A stretch of DNA of 64,000 nt from positions 186,001-250,000 of the forward strand of contig JAEKNX010000001.1 in NCBI GenBank assembly GCA_016839055.1. Direction: 5' to 3'. Under the pieces are notes generated by a model. That model was not told where the DNA came from, made no database searches, and was given only the letters and a program-made list of their open reading frames with translations. Position 1 is the first letter of the stretch. Each line of letters starts with the position of its first letter. Positions 23,234 through 45,146 of this stretch are shown in pieces. The translations under genes were made by a program, and so were the position numbers. The DNA is from Spirochaetales bacterium. GTDB taxonomy: Bacteria > Spirochaetota > Spirochaetia > UBA9216.

Positions 23234-24163
23234 ATGCTGCGCTTTACCCGAAAACCATATCTTGGATTCATCTTTCCTGGTTTCGTAATATATACGGTTT
23301 TCATGATAGTACCGCTGCTAACCGCTGTTTATTATAGTTTTTTCCAGTGGTCCGGCCTCGGACCAAAAATATTCATTGGTCTGGAAAACTACCGCAGTCT
23401 GTTTTTTGATGAACGGCTTTCGGGAATTTTCTGGAACGCCCTCGGTAATAATTTTAAATTTGTCGGCATAGTGCTAGCAATCATTATGCCAATCCAGCTT
23501 TTTATAGCCTACTGGCTTGATGTTAAAATAATTGGTTATAAGTTTCATCGGACAATAATATTTTTGCCCTATGTAATCTCATCGACTATCGTAGGTTTTT
23601 TGACCATGCTTGTATTCAATCCGAATATAGGAATTATAAATACATTTTTAAAATACGTCGGCCTGGACTCACATTTGTCGGCCTGGTTTGGGGATCCCAG
23701 GCGTGCTTTTCCTCTTGTTTCGATTGTAATAGCCTGGCAGGGTATTGCCGCGGGAATGTTTATTTTCCTCGCTAACCTTAAAGGTATATCTCAGAATATT
23801 ATAGAAGCTTCGCTGATAGACGGAGCCGGCCGATGGCAGAGGTTCAGATACATAATACTTCCGTCGCTCAAACCATCGCTGATTAATAACATAATCCTCG
23901 GTACAATATGGGGGCTTACCCAGTTTGATATACCCTTCGTTGTCGGCGGAAGCCAGGGAGGGGTAAATAATTCAATAGATTTTATGAATCTCTTTTTCTA
24001 CCGCTTCGCCTTCGGTGGTTCCTATTACGGAGAAACCTCGATGGGTTTCGGTGCGACGATTAGCGTAGTCCTCTTTTTTATCATTCTTATAGTAGCGATT
24101 ATCCAGATTACTTTTCTCACTAGGAAATTCGACGGCGGAAGCGGGCAAAGGAGTATAAAATGA
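23234..24163 (+). CDS. Sugar ABC transporter permease, MalF/UgpA type
   Basis: 309 residues, six predicted helices. The ATPase-coupling EAA loop is present as EASLIDGAGRWQRFRYIILP. AAGGAGG precedes the ATG by 8 bases. The stop overlaps the next start (ATGA), so both permeases are made in step. Forms the inner-membrane channel for the oligosaccharide bound by the preceding gene product. Confidence 0.92.
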   Translation: MLRFTRKPYLGFIFPGFVIYTVFMIVPLLTAVYYSFFQWSGLGPKIFIGLENYRSLFFDERLSGIFWNALGNNFKFVGIVLAIIMPIQLFIAYWLDVKIIGYKFHRTIIFLPYVISSTIVGFLTMLVFNPNIGIINTFLKYVGLDSHLSAWFGDPRRAFPLVSIVIAWQGIAAGMFIFLANLKGISQNIIEASLIDGAGRWQRFRYIILPSLKPSLINNIILGTIWGLTQFDIPFVVGGSQGGVNNSIDFMNLFFYRFAFGGSYYGETSMGFGATISVVLFFIILIVAIIQITFLTRKFDGGSGQRSIK

Positions 24164-39895: not shown

Positions 39896-40741
39896 ATGCT
39901 TAGAGGTTTATATACCGGAGCCAGCGGGATGCAGGCTCAGATACACAAAATGGATGCACTCGCAAACAATCTCGCTAATGTTGATACAACTGGTTACAAG
40001 AAAGATACCTCAGTTCAAAAAGCATTTCCACAGATGCTCATCAGGCGAATGAACGATGAAGTCTATAAATTCCCCTTCGGATCGGTAGATTCCACCCCGG
40101 TTGTCGGAAAACTCGGCAGCGGAGTAGAGCTTAATGAGATATATACCCAGTTTACTCAAGGATCACTTAAGGAAACCGGTAATCCATTAGACACGGCTCT
40201 CGACGGGCTGGGTTTTTTTACGATAGACACACCAAACGGGGAACGCTATACTAGGAACGGAACATTTCTTATTGATAATAACGGTCTTCTTGTTACCAAA
40301 GAAGGTCTTCCTGTTCAGGGTGAGAATGGAAATATATATATAAAGAAGAATAATTTTGTAATAGATAAACAGGGAAGAGTTTTTCAGAACGCCGATTTCG
40401 CCAATAATCCCGAGCGTCTTGTTTCGATGAAGGAGAATGACTGGGCAAATCTTGAGCAGGTTGATACTCTGAAGATCGTCGACTTCACCAGAAGCCGTTA
40501 CTTAAAGAAACAAGGCAGCTCGCTCTGGACCGCTACCAATGAATCAGGGGCGCCAAAGGGGGTAGACCTAGGTGGTTCTACTAAGGTTATCCAGGGATTT
40601 CTTGAAAAAGCGAACGTTAATCCGGTTACCGAGATGGTTGCGATGATTACGGTAAACAGGGCATATGAAGCAAACCAGAAGGTTATATCGACGCATGATC
40701 AGATGACTGATAAGCTGATTAACCAGGCAGTAAGGGTATAG
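39896..40741 (+). CDS. flgF: Flagellar basal-body rod protein FlgF-like
   Basis: 281 residues. The N-terminal rod motif GASGMQAQIHKMDALANNLA with ANVDTTGYKKD and the C-terminal FLEKANVNPVTEMVAMITVN, RAYEANQK are diagnostic for FlgE/F/G proteins. Being the first of two adjacent paralogues and lacking the hook-length insert, it is the proximal rod FlgF (flhO in Borrelia). CGGAGGAAATA precedes the ATG. Exported by the flagellar secretion apparatus and assembled into the rod of the periplasmic flagellum. Confidence 0.9.
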   Translation: MLRGLYTGASGMQAQIHKMDALANNLANVDTTGYKKDTSVQKAFPQMLIRRMNDEVYKFPFGSVDSTPVVGKLGSGVELNEIYTQFTQGSLKETGNPLDTALDGLGFFTIDTPNGERYTRNGTFLIDNNGLLVTKEGLPVQGENGNIYIKKNNFVIDKQGRVFQNADFANNPERLVSMKENDWANLEQVDTLKIVDFTRSRYLKKQGSSLWTATNESGAPKGVDLGGSTKVIQGFLEKANVNPVTEMVAMITVNRAYEANQKVISTHDQMTDKLINQAVRV

Positions 40742-40826: not shown

Positions 40827-41621
40827 ATGATGAGATCACTTTATACAGCGGCGTCCGGGATGACCGGTCAGCAGTTTAACATCGATACAATTTCGAATAA
40901 TCTTTCGAATGTAAATACCACCGGATTCAAGCAGAACCGGGTTGATTTCGAGGATCTCCTCTATCAGACAACCAGGGTCGCCGGAACTCCGGCAACCGAG
41001 CAGACAGTTGTCCCGGTTGGTGTTCAGGTTGGTCATGGTGTCAAGGTTTCCGCCACCCAGAAGATGTATACCCAGGGCGCTCTCCAGAATACCGGTAATA
41101 TCTCAGACGTTGCAATTCAGGGTGAAGGTTTCATGAGGGTAATGCTGATTGACGGCACCTATGGTTATACCCGCGACGGTGCTCTTAAGATTGATATGAA
41201 CGGCCAGATGGTAACCTCTAACGGTTATAAACTTATGCCCGATGTTATTCTTCCCGAAGGTTTTGTCCGCGATTCTCTTTCCCTTTCACAGGACGGAAGA
41301 ATCACGGTAAAGGTCGCAGGCAGCGATGAGCCGCTTCAGGTCGGACAGATGCAGCTCTTCCGCTTCGTGAATCCCGCAGGACTCTCGGCGATCGGTGAAA
41401 ACCTTTTGAAAACAACCGGTGCATCTGGAGATGCTATCGGAGGACGGCCGGGGTTTGATGGAATGGGAACAGTTCAGCATAAGTTTCTTGAAATGTCGAA
41501 TGTTTCGGTAGTTCAGGAAATGGTTAACATGATCGTTGCGCAAAGAGCGTATGAGCTCAATTCAAAGGCAATACAGACCTCTGACTCGATGCTTCAGGTT
41601 GCGAATAACCTTAAAAGGTAG
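40827..41621 (+). CDS. flgG: Flagellar distal rod protein FlgG
   Basis: 264 residues, standard FlgG length. N-terminus MRSLYTAASGMTGQQFNIDT, ISNNLSNVNTTGFKQNR, central GDVAIQGEGFM-like SDVAIQGEGFMRV, and C-terminal FLEMSNVSVVQEMVNMIVAQ, RAYELNSKAIQTSD. ACGGAGGAATG precedes the ATG. Builds the distal rod crossing the peptidoglycan layer. Followed after 7 bases by the rod-binding flgJ-type gene. Confidence 0.95.
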   Translation: MMRSLYTAASGMTGQQFNIDTISNNLSNVNTTGFKQNRVDFEDLLYQTTRVAGTPATEQTVVPVGVQVGHGVKVSATQKMYTQGALQNTGNISDVAIQGEGFMRVMLIDGTYGYTRDGALKIDMNGQMVTSNGYKLMPDVILPEGFVRDSLSLSQDGRITVKVAGSDEPLQVGQMQLFRFVNPAGLSAIGENLLKTTGASGDAIGGRPGFDGMGTVQHKFLEMSNVSVVQEMVNMIVAQRAYELNSKAIQTSDSMLQVANNLKR

Positions 41622-41628
41622 GAAGTAA

Positions 41629-41949
41629 ATGGAAATAACTGACGCAGCAAGTCTGCAATATCGAAATACAAGCCTGAACGCATCCCTTGAAAGTGTCAAG
41701 CGAGGCGGAATTTCAGAGGCTGAAGAAGCGAAACTGAAAGAAGCTTGTCAGGATTTTGAGTCTCTCTTCATAAAGCAGATGCTCGACACAATGAGAAAGA
41801 CTGTCAATAAGGGTGAACTCCTTAACGGCGGTATGGCTGAAGATATTTTTGAGGATATGCTCTATGATGAGTATGCCTCGGCAATAGCCGGAAGCGGTGA
41901 TTTCGGAATATCGAAGATGATGTATAGTGAACTTGCGGGACGCAGATAA
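41629..41949 (+). CDS. flgJ: FlgJ-type rod-binding protein
   Basis: 106 residues corresponding to the N-terminal rod-binding domain of FlgJ only: CQDFESLFIKQMLDTMRKTV, GGMAEDIFEDMLYDEYASAI and ISKMMYSEL. The muramidase half of enterobacterial FlgJ is absent, as is common in spirochaetes. AGGAAGTAA lies before the ATG, 7 bases after flgG. Acts as a scaffold or cap for rod assembly. Confidence 0.88.
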   Translation: MEITDAASLQYRNTSLNASLESVKRGGISEAEEAKLKEACQDFESLFIKQMLDTMRKTVNKGELLNGGMAEDIFEDMLYDEYASAIAGSGDFGISKMMYSELAGRR

Positions 41950-42064: not shown

Positions 42065-42154
42065 TTTAGAAATTATTCAAATCTCGACATTCTAAGTATT
42101 TTTTTAATTCCTTGTATAGTAGGCGTTTACCTCAATATTATTTTAGAAATATTA
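42065..42154. repeat. Two similar AT-rich boxes upstream of the sigma-54 promoter
   Basis: TTTAGAAATTATT (42065-42077) and TTTAGAAATATTA (42142-42154) share most positions. They could be activator sites for an enhancer-binding protein, but AT-rich sequence makes chance similarity quite possible. The remaining 41950-42157 interval shows no gene. Confidence 0.3.
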
Positions 42155-42157
42155 GTT

Positions 42158-42173
42158 TGGCACGATAATTGCA
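42158..42173 (+). promoter_or_regulatory. Sigma-54 (RpoN) promoter of the sigma factor gene
   Basis: TGGCACGATAATTGCA matches the -24/-12 consensus TGGCACG-N4-TTGCW at every defined position. The expected start near 42184 is directly upstream of the GAGGTGA ribosome site, an arrangement that makes sense as a real, short leader. Confidence 0.82.
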
Positions 42174-42195
42174 ATGTTATTGTGAGGTGATGAAT

Positions 42196-43035
42196 ATGAC
42201 AAAGAGAACTGAGGTACAGGATAGTGCAATTAAATCTTACTTTAGGCAAATACAGAAATACCCTCTCCTTGATTTCTCTGAGGAGATAGAATTATCAAAA
42301 CGTGTTCAATCAGGAGATGCAAAGGCGCAGACAATTCTTGTGGAATCTAATTTACGGCTTGTTGTAAAGATAGCAAAACCCTATGTCAGTAAAGATATGA
42401 GCTTCCTTGACGTTATTCAGGAAGGGAATCTGGGATTGATGAAGGCCGCTGAGAAATATGATTACCGGAAGAATGTCAGGTTTTCAACCTATGCCGCGTG
42501 GTGGATCCGCCAGGCAATAGTCAGGGCAATCTCTAATAAACGCAGACCAATAAGGCTTCCTCACAGGAAAGAAGAAATAATCAGAAAAATTAAGCAGGCA
42601 TACTATTCTCTGAGTCAGGTTTACTCCAGAGAACCTACTACAAGTGAGATTGCCGAAGACTTGAAAATAGACGAGAATGAGCTGATCACAATCATGCAGA
42701 TGAGCGGTGACCTTATATCGCTTGACGCTGAGATCAATGATGATTCCGGAACCCTTATTACAATGTTTGAGGATAAGTCGTTTGAGCCGGCAGAAACAGT
42801 CTTTAACAAGTTTATGAGGGCGGACACTCTCAGAACCATGGAAATGCTTCCTGAGAAAGAACGTAAGGTCCTTCTGTACCGATATTCTTTTTATGACGGT
42901 GAAAAGTATACCCTCAAGAAGATAGGAGATAAATTCGGTATTTCCCCTGAAACAGTAAGACAGATAGAGATGCGGGCTCTAAAAAAACTCAGCAAGGAAG
43001 CAGAAAAGCTTCGCGAATACGTTTATTCAGGTTAA
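42196..43035 (+). CDS. RNA polymerase sigma factor, sigma-70 family (RpoS/SigA-like group)
   Basis: 279 residues. Region 1.2/2 (SYFRQIQKYPLLDFSEEIEL, NLRLVVKIAKPYV, DVIQEGNLGLMKAAEKYDYR, FSTYAAWWIRQAIVRAISNK) and region 3/4 (REPTTSEIAEDLKIDENELI, LPEKERKVLLYRYSF, LKKIGDKFGISPETVRQIEM). It lacks the long region 1.1 of a housekeeping RpoD, so it is an alternative factor, similar in size to RpoS of Borrelia. ATG 42196 fits AGGTGA at 5 bases; another in-frame ATG at 42190 is too close. Its promoter is of the sigma-54 type, suggesting a two-tier sigma cascade. Confidence 0.88.
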   Translation: MTKRTEVQDSAIKSYFRQIQKYPLLDFSEEIELSKRVQSGDAKAQTILVESNLRLVVKIAKPYVSKDMSFLDVIQEGNLGLMKAAEKYDYRKNVRFSTYAAWWIRQAIVRAISNKRRPIRLPHRKEEIIRKIKQAYYSLSQVYSREPTTSEIAEDLKIDENELITIMQMSGDLISLDAEINDDSGTLITMFEDKSFEPAETVFNKFMRADTLRTMEMLPEKERKVLLYRYSFYDGEKYTLKKIGDKFGISPETVRQIEMRALKKLSKEAEKLREYVYSG

Positions 43036-43171: not shown

Positions 43172-44131
43172 GTGGCTGAAAACAGGAAAAGAAAGAGGGG
43201 TTTGAGTCTTACCGGGCTTAAACCCTATTATATTATTATCACGATTATAATCATCCTCCTTGTTATAACCCTCGTTCTTTTAAAGAACGGCAGGGATGTT
43301 TATCTTCCGGATGAAAAACCGGGAGTAGAAGAAATGCCGGCCCTGAAGCCGGTTTTTCCTGAAAAGCCGGTAGCTGAAAAGCCCGGGGGGCACAGCATTA
43401 AGCCGTCGGGTATTCCGGAGAAACCTGAAGTTGAAAAAATGGGCAGTCTTGCTTTTGTGATCGATGATGTGGGGAATAATCTCGATCAGCTGAAATATTT
43501 TCTTAAAATACCTTATCCTGTTACATTTGCGATAATGCCTGATAGAGCTTATTCTGCAGAATGCGCGGAACTGATAACAGCGGCCGGACAGAAATACATA
43601 CTTCACCAGCCGATGGAAGCAATAAACGGAGAAGATCCAGGCGCCTCGGCAATACGTACCGGAATGAGCAGACAGGAAATACGCGAGATACTCGAACATA
43701 ATTTCAATCAGCTGCCTGATGCCCTCGGCATGAATAATCATATGGGATCAAAGGCGACGACAGATCCTGAGGTAATGGATGCTGTGATGGAGTATCTGGC
43801 TGAAAAAGATCTGTTTTTCCTTGACAGTTACACAATATCCAATAGTCTTGGTGTAGAGGCTGCTTCAAAGCATCATGTACGCTACTTAAAAAGGAATAGT
43901 ATGTTTTTAGATAACGACAAAGACCATGAATCCATTATGCATGCGATAAATGAGGGAGCAAAGATAGCAGGTAAAAAAAGCCATGCTGTCATGATTGGTC
44001 ATATCATGACAGGAGAGCTCGCTGATTCAATGCTGGAACTCTATCCGAACTTTATCGAAGATGGTTTTTCCCTCAGAGAAATCTCCGAGATTTTCATCGA
44101 GATGAGCAAGCCTGACATAGTAGAGGACTAG
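43172..44131 (+). CDS. Divergent polysaccharide deacetylase family protein (YibQ type)
   Basis: 319 residues. A short basic N-terminus, one membrane anchor (about residues 18-40, YYIIITIIIILLVITLVLL), a proline-rich linker with repeated PEKP motifs (residues 45-85), then the divergent polysaccharide deacetylase domain: LAFVIDDVGNN, VTFAIMPDRAYS, ILHQPMEA, GMNNHMGSKATTD, FFLDSYTISNSLGVEA and AVMIGHIMTGEL. The start is GTG at 43172 without a strong ribosome site. Probably periplasmic and linked to cell-wall or glycan processing. tsaD follows one base after its stop. Confidence 0.85.
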   Translation: MAENRKRKRGLSLTGLKPYYIIITIIIILLVITLVLLKNGRDVYLPDEKPGVEEMPALKPVFPEKPVAEKPGGHSIKPSGIPEKPEVEKMGSLAFVIDDVGNNLDQLKYFLKIPYPVTFAIMPDRAYSAECAELITAAGQKYILHQPMEAINGEDPGASAIRTGMSRQEIREILEHNFNQLPDALGMNNHMGSKATTDPEVMDAVMEYLAEKDLFFLDSYTISNSLGVEAASKHHVRYLKRNSMFLDNDKDHESIMHAINEGAKIAGKKSHAVMIGHIMTGELADSMLELYPNFIEDGFSLREISEIFIEMSKPDIVED

Positions 44132-44132
44132 T

Positions 44133-45146
44133 ATGCTGATTCTCGGAATTGAAAGCTCATGTGATGAATGTTCTGCCGCCGTGGTCGATGACGGAAAAAC
44201 TATCCTAAGCAATGAAATAGCAACCCAGATTGATATTCATAAACCCTATGAAGGAGTAGTCCCTGAAATTGCTTCACGAACCCATACCGAATGGATCTCC
44301 GGGGTCGTTCGCAAGGCGCTTGAGGATTCAGACAAGACTATTGCAGATATTGACGGGATTGCGGTAACCAACCGTCCGGGGCTGATAGGCTCGCTGATGG
44401 TCGGACTTTCTTTCGCGAAGGGGTTGTCCCTGGCCTCAGGAAAACCCTTTATTGGAATAGACCACATAATGGCGCATCTCTATGCTGCCCAGCTTGAGAG
44501 GGATATTGAATACCCCTTTCTCGGGCTCCTGGTCTCCGGTGGACACACAATAATTTCGATTGTCAGGGACTTTGATGATATTGAGGTGCTGGGAACAACG
44601 ATTGATGACGCTTGCGGCGAGGCATATGACAAGGTGGCAAAGCATTACGGCTTCGGATATCCCGGAGGACAGCTTATAGACAGACTCGCGGCCAAGGGAG
44701 ATCCCCGTGCGTTTAATTTTCCAGACCCGTCGCTGCATAAGGGGGAGCATCGATATGACGTTTCCTATTCAGGACTGAAGACGGCTGTAATCAATCAGCT
44801 TGATCAGTTTCATGTTGAGGGTTATGAGAAGAGTCCGGAAAACATCGCGGCTTCTTTTCAGAAGGCGGCAATAAACATGCTGACCAAAAGACTCTTCAAG
44901 GCCGTTGCTGACACCGGCATTAACCGGGTTGTTGCCGGCGGCGGAGTTGCCGCGAACTCATATCTGCGTGAGAGTCTTGAGAATAAAAAAAATATTGATA
45001 TTTACTTTCCGTCGATGGAGCTTTGCACAGATAACGCGGCAATGATTGCGGGCATCGGTTATCATTATCTGAAAAGGGGTGACCGGTCCAGTCTCGATGT
45101 GACAGCGGGATCCCGAGTGGCGGGATTTAGGAAAAAATATCCATGA
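44133..45146 (+). CDS. tsaD: tRNA threonylcarbamoyladenosine transferase TsaD
   Basis: 337 residues, normal length. ILGIESSCDECSAAVVDDGK, ASRTHTEWISG, IGIDHIMAHLYAA, GLLVSGGHTIISIV, TIDDACGEAYDKVAKHYGF, GYPGG and RVVAGGGVAANSYLRE are the standard ASKHA motifs, and CTDNAAMIAGIG closes the protein. Transfers the threonylcarbamoyl group to A37 of ANN-decoding tRNAs, which would include the tRNA-Thr in this window. The GAGGA before the ATG is within the end of the preceding gene. Confidence 0.96.
   Translation: MLILGIESSCDECSAAVVDDGKTILSNEIATQIDIHKPYEGVVPEIASRTHTEWISGVVRKALEDSDKTIADIDGIAVTNRPGLIGSLMVGLSFAKGLSLASGKPFIGIDHIMAHLYAAQLERDIEYPFLGLLVSGGHTIISIVRDFDDIEVLGTTIDDACGEAYDKVAKHYGFGYPGGQLIDRLAAKGDPRAFNFPDPSLHKGEHRYDVSYSGLKTAVINQLDQFHVEGYEKSPENIAASFQKAAINMLTKRLFKAVADTGINRVVAGGGVAANSYLRESLENKKNIDIYFPSMELCTDNAAMIAGIGYHYLKRGDRSSLDVTAGSRVAGFRKKYP

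Follow-up and report, generated by a model that had tools for sequence, protein, structure and literature searches.

A conserved sigma-54-type promoter before a predicted orthologue of Borrelia rpoS in a Spirochaetales bacterium

In a 64-kb stretch of DNA from a Spirochaetales bacterium (the whole of which is referred to below as the window) a complete -24/-12 site of the sigma-54 (RpoN) type stands just before a gene that appears to be the orthologue of Borrelia rpoS, and the site recurs before the great majority of the orthologues that could be collected across the phylum. The explanation that best accounts for these observations as a whole is an ancestral spirochaetal RpoN-to-RpoS cascade, which we consider very probable. 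Transmission of the Lyme spirochaete has the Borrelia RpoN-RpoS pathway as its master switch; the window comes from an uncultured, probably free-living spirochaete, whose nearest named relative is a metagenome-assembled genome, Candidatus Thalassospirochaeta sargassi.

The promoter and the sigma factor gene

An initial annotation of this DNA had proposed that a full match to the RpoN consensus directly controls an RpoS-sized gene of the sigma-70 family lying beside flagellar rod genes, and all of these elements are borne out at the level of the sequence (Table 1). The 16-mer is indeed a complete -24/-12 site, with its doublets GG at 42159-42160 and GC at 42171-42172 at a spacing of N10, and, as described in the next section, it is kept in nearly all orthologues. 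While the call of a promoter at the sigma gene is strong, the use of the site by sigma-54 is a prediction from its sequence. One match to the pattern TGGCAYGN4TTGCW was found in the 64-kb window, where shuffles predict 0.01; the 5.0-Mb genome has 11 matches, and none to the reversed pattern that served as a control. With a looser -24/-12 pattern the corresponding numbers for the whole genome are 15 and 4. Besides the site of the window there are 14 genomic sites, 13 of which have the start of an ORF of at least 199 codons no more than 150 bp downstream; the remaining one is located within an ABC permease gene. A -24/-12-like match in the window, on the minus strand at 23476-23491, falls inside an ABC transporter permease ORF (23234-24163) and is probably due to chance.

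Table 1. Coordinates of the features discussed in the text (positions in the window).
Feature	Position	Strand	Basis
flgF, flagellar rod protein; 5' end of the conserved neighbourhood	39896..40741	+	NCBIfam TIGR02490 above cut-off
flgG, flagellar rod protein	40827..41621	+	NCBIfam TIGR02488 and NF009456 above cut-off
flgJ-type rod-binding protein	41629..41949	+	Pfam PF10135
24-bp imperfect palindrome TAATTCCTTGTATAGTAGGCGTTT, candidate upstream activator site	42105..42128	+	Class-wide model score 13.8
Predicted sigma-54 -24/-12 promoter TGGCACGATAATTGCA	42158..42173	+	Window match, genome enrichment, conservation upstream of orthologues
Predicted +1 (~42184), overlapping the Shine-Dalgarno sequence GAGGTG	42184..42189	+	Inferred from -12 geometry
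Group-2-like sigma-70-family factor, 279 aa, predicted orthologue of Borrelia RpoS (BB0771)	42196..43035	+	Pfam domains, tree, synteny
Divergent polysaccharide deacetylase, conserved downstream neighbour	43172..44131	+	Pfam PF04748; equal place in Borrelia
tsaD, conserved downstream neighbour	44133..45146	+	NCBIfam TIGR03723 above cut-off

The best start codon of the sigma gene is the ATG at 42196, six bases after GAGGTG. The distance from the C of the -12 element to this ATG is 24 bases, and 24 nt is also the median of the C-to-start-codon distance over 172 orthologues. If transcription begins 12 nt past the C of the GC doublet, +1 would fall at about 42184 and the leader would be about 12 nt long. 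The annotation had placed the start just before the ribosome site: the predicted position is near that site, but it coincides with the first base of the Shine-Dalgarno sequence instead of preceding it.

The product contains sigma-70 regions 1.2, 2, 3 and 4 according to Pfam, and NCBIfam assigns it to the RpoD/RpoS superfamily with scores under the cut-off of every family shown. Against the rpoS_proteo model (TIGR02394) it scores 234.7 bits, the equivalog cut-off being 378.7 bits; Borrelia RpoS, with 217.6 bits, lies under the same cut-off. On the basis of the cut-off and of the tree described below, we rejected a classification of the protein as proteobacterial RpoS. Its likeness to the gamma-proteobacterial RpoS (sigma-38) is that of a small RpoD-family sigma factor with regions 1.2-4, from which it differs not only in the equivalog score and in its separate place in the tree, but also in the P-x-R-K-E motif that it carries in the region of K173. 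The motif is readable in 170 sequences, 164 of which retain the R-K pair that has been proposed as a stand-in for K173 of E. coli RpoS (PMC6719511).

Much of the neighbourhood is also conserved. Among the non-Borrelia loci, flgJ is the gene directly upstream in 86 of the 152 whose flanks are long enough, and TsaD is encoded downstream in 93 of 124; both arrangements are also found in Borrelia, and flgF has an equal place in Borrelia and its relatives. On one spirochaete contig (L045:5000-6834) the sigma orthologue is present as two tandem copies.

Conservation of the promoter and of an upstream palindrome

Orthologues were taken from GTDB contigs, from 392 class genomes, from 36 Borrelia-family genomes and from 110 genomes spread across the phylum. 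The pattern TGGCAYRN4TTGCW was sought up to 300 bp upstream of 207 redundant loci, which include three Sphaerochaeta-type loci (L284-L286). On the sense strand 158 loci had an exact match and 39 a match with one mismatch. The antisense strand had 0 exact matches and 2 with one mismatch, and shuffled upstream sequences gave 0.05 and 0.15, respectively. After removal of duplicates and of the paralogous Sphaerochaeta-type loci, 152 of the 160 distinct non-Borrelia orthologues (the search in other Spirochaetales had been suggested in the annotation as a check of the proposal) and 22 of 23 distinct orthologues in the Borrelia family had a site with no more than one mismatch upstream. Most of the exceptions keep a degenerate near-site, such as TGGCACGGTAATTGTT; a change of GC to GT is one example of the alterations. 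No -24/-12 site could be recognized upstream of two non-Borrelia orthologues (L262 and L268), nor before rpoS in one genome of the Borrelia family (L292 in G095), where both doublets look altered. In loci with neither flgJ upstream nor tsaD downstream the site is retained in 25 of 26 cases, and thus it travels with the sigma gene rather than with its neighbours. Beyond the class, 17 loci were fetched, 9 of which were placed in the tree, and every one of the 17 has a site no further than 300 bp upstream and with no more than one mismatch. This count leaves aside three second matches (L339, L340 and L342), which were rejected as orthologues; they are paralogues that have no site, and serve in effect as negative controls.

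When 145 non-Borrelia promoters are aligned on the -24/-12 element, a symmetric peak of information appears from 52 to 29 bases upstream. We described it by a 24-bp palindrome model (WAANTYYTTN6AARRANTTW) with a threshold score of at least 8, which is reached in 65% of the non-Borrelia orthologue promoters and in 57% of a held-out half, as compared with 2-3% of shuffles; among Borrelia promoters it is reached in 0 of 30. The best positions are near -52 in the sigma promoters, while at other sigma-54 promoters of the genome (L021, L023, L024, L025 and L026) copies occur near -42, -52 and -62, a spacing that suggests helical phasing. The presence of these copies rules out that the palindrome is private to sigma genes. 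The copy at 42105-42128 may be the binding site of the activator or of a co-factor. In Borrelia Rrp2 activates rpoS without an enhancer (PMC1976401), and the absence of the palindrome from the Borrelia promoters fits this mode of action.

The genome contains a second group-2-like sigma gene on contig C33 (G000:C33:285043-285834; L005; L347:4469-5380), 57 kb downstream of the first, with its own -24/-12 site, TGGCACGCTTCCTGCT, and a palindrome just upstream. A site similar to TGGCACGCTTCCTGCT is found at five family loci and at the three Sphaerochaeta-type loci, which are relatives of the second sigma gene; these three had been considered as orthologues of the window gene and were rejected because they group with the second sigma paralogue in the tree.

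Relationship to Borrelia RpoS and its regulators

The comparison with the Rrp2-RpoN-RpoS cascade of Borrelia had been drawn in the annotation as one of shared logic, and our results support homology. In a 906-kb Borreliella-type chromosome (G186) flgF, flgG, further genes, flgJ, the sigma gene, the deacetylase gene and tsaD follow one another in the order seen in the window, and TGGCATGATTTTTGCA stands before the sigma gene. The chromosome is taken to be of Borreliella type from its size, its gene content and an RpoS of 267 aa encoded at the expected place. This gene order agrees with the published map of B. burgdorferi, flgI-flgJ-rpoS, on which the mapped start of rpoS follows a sigma-54 promoter located in the interval from flgJ to rpoS (PMC1976401).

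Trees were calculated with FastTree and, for a set of 62 rows, with IQ-TREE under PMSF. In the latter, 42 rows, comprising the spirochaete orthologues, the out-of-class orthologues and Borrelia RpoS, form a single clade (100/97), inside which Borrelia RpoS, the orthologues of the class including the window protein, and five out-of-class rows make up an inner clade (97/90). E. coli RpoS, RpoD and two groups of spirochaete paralogues are outside the clade of 42, with E. coli RpoS paired with a protein from a Nitrospira record. A tree constrained to unite Borrelia RpoS with E. coli RpoS and the row nearest to the latter is worse by 36.7 lnL (p-AU 0.049); taken alone this rejection is marginal, and it is strengthened by the gene order and the promoter. 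Overall, there is a strong case, drawn from sequence comparison, that the window gene and Borrelia rpoS are orthologous, by their place in the tree as well as by their position among the flanking genes. The identity of BB0771 has been disputed: doubts that it is RpoS were expressed by Chiang and Schellhorn in 2010 and by Hengge in 2011 (as recorded in PMC6719511), and in a neighbour-joining tree of 2019 it fell among homologues from beta-, delta- and zeta-proteobacteria (PMC6719511). Our analysis bears on this dispute, as it supports the view that Borrelia RpoS is not a proteobacterial RpoS by descent.

The remaining parts of the cascade have counterparts in the genome as well. The proposal depended on the presence of rpoN, and the gene was found at G000:C17:6631 (Sigma54_DBD match, E 1.5e-56); rpoN is present in 384 of the 392 class genomes. 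Matches to the DNA-binding domain of RpoN are absent, weak or split in five assemblies of the Borrelia family (G130, G206, G174, G023 and G059), which could reflect assembly error or damaged genes. Of about 15 strong enhancer-binding proteins encoded in the genome, 12 were compared with Borrelia Rrp2: one (G000:C15:112777-114126; L345:6251-7630) is 54.9% identical to it over 448 aa, and the next best is 40.8% identical. The gene adjacent upstream of this Rrp2 orthologue is the best match to Hk2 (36% over 340 aa), and the two belong to a series of five genes, in which they are preceded by murG-, cvpA- and DNA polymerase III delta'-like genes (names given from reading the sequences and not from a profile search), and whose order is identical in Borrelia. 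Of 89 class genomes, 85 have an Rrp2 orthologue, with few exceptions a single one. One genome of 1.1 Mb (G072) has Rrp2 and no orthologue of the window sigma gene. Two genes of the Fur family are present, the better of which is 34% identical to Borrelia BosR over 102 aa, and neither stands out as a clear counterpart of this co-activator.

Proposed mechanism, alternatives and significance

According to the mechanism that we propose, RNA polymerase with sigma-54 would wait as a closed complex at 42158-42173 until an AAA+ enhancer-binding protein of the NtrC family, most likely Rrp2 with its kinase Hk2, opens the complex; the short-leader mRNA produced from the opened promoter would encode the sigma factor, which would then redirect core polymerase to its own regulon. 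In Borrelia, transcription of the sigma gene by RpoN holoenzyme with an activator of this family has been measured. The choice of Rrp2 as the activator at this promoter is a guess from orthology among about 15 activators, and is probable at best. In Borrelia, a single sigma-54 target would have survived genome reduction, the palindrome and the other targets having been lost.

The alternatives differ in which part of this scheme they replace. That the 16-mer arose by chance, with transcription of the gene coming from the flagellar operon or a sigma-70 promoter, is the least credible of them: we found no terminator in the stretch from flgJ to the sigma gene, where a weak sigma-70-like match (9/12) also overlaps the -24/-12 site, but the site is near-universal at a fixed position while the surrounding sequence has diverged, and the motif is enriched genome-wide (11 versus 0). 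Read-through or sigma-70 transcription may add to the sigma-54 promoter and need not replace it. It is also very improbable that the promoter is sigma-54-dependent here while Borrelia rpoS is of independent origin, for example by transfer from another phylum, so that the logic is convergent. The branch of Borrelia RpoS in the tree is long, its identity to the window protein is about 40%, and the proteobacterial grouping of the neighbour-joining tree (PMC6719511) would agree with such an origin; yet the order of the genes is equal on both flanks of the sigma gene, the promoter is the same in both, the Hk2-Rrp2 gene order is shared, the inner clade (97/90) unites Borrelia RpoS with the window protein, and the AU test speaks, marginally, against a grouping with E. 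coli RpoS.

A different activator deserves more attention, even though we hold it to be rather unlikely. Here sigma-54 would drive the gene with a protein other than Rrp2 bound to the palindrome, and Rrp2 would have taken over in Borrelia after the loss of the others. The large number of enhancer-binding proteins in the genome leaves room for such a protein, and the enhancer-free action of Borrelia Rrp2 (PMC1976401) matches the contrast between non-Borrelia promoters, with a phased palindrome, and those of Borrelia, without it. Against this stand the near-constant presence of Rrp2 in the class, almost always as a single gene, and the occurrence of the palindrome at several other sigma-54 promoters, which does not look specific to one activator.

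The cascade that we favour can be set beside the systems described in other spirochaetes. With Hk2-Rrp2-RpoN-RpoS of B. burgdorferi it shares the predicted orthologous sigma factor, the flanking genes, the -24/-12 site, rpoN and the Hk2-Rrp2 gene order; it differs in that the window genome has 11-15 candidate sigma-54 sites, some 15 activators, the palindrome, and a second sigma gene with a site of its own. B. burgdorferi has rpoS as its sole known gene with such a site, and it needs BosR in addition (PMC12472547). A host-phase lipoprotein regulon is not expected for the window sigma factor. Leptospira EbpA-sigma-54 is likewise a pairing of spirochaete sigma-54 with an enhancer-binding protein; it is described as serving nitrogen and environmental control, and L. 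interrogans is reported to be without RpoS (PMC12655853). Hpk2-Rrp2 of Treponema denticola, a predicted sigma-54 activator pair (PMC12070737), carries the same name, and Rrp2 orthologues are near-universal in the class, but no link to RpoS downstream has been reported for it, and some treponeme-type genomes (such as G072) are without the sigma orthologue.

Since orthologues with the site exist in other classes of the phylum, the cascade probably predates Borrelia and would be far older than life in tick and mammal, in keeping with the suggestion of the annotation that it is older than the tick-mammal cycle. A more elaborate history, which we regard as possible but put at somewhat less than an even chance, is that the switch is ancestral to Spirochaetota and was originally two-armed, with sigma-54 turning on two group-2-like sigma factors simultaneously, aided by a shared DNA-binding co-factor that recognizes the helically phased palindrome before many sigma-54 promoters. 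In Borrelia only one of the arms would then remain, without the palindrome and without the other sigma factor, and what was left would have been put to new use in the tick-mammal cycle.

A review of 2025 still terms the sigma-54-RpoS switch unique (PMC12472547). As far as the open-access literature shows, it is new that the switch is not peculiar to Borrelia, though priority is not certain. The orthologous parts, gene order and promoter found far from Borrelia suggest that BB0771 is a sigma factor of spirochaete type, and that an ancestral circuit was taken over as the virulence switch. Inheritance of such a circuit offers a possible reason why RpoN has been retained in Borrelia, where it has a single known target. 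In harmless free-living spirochaetes it also becomes possible to test which signal and which regulon the switch had originally.
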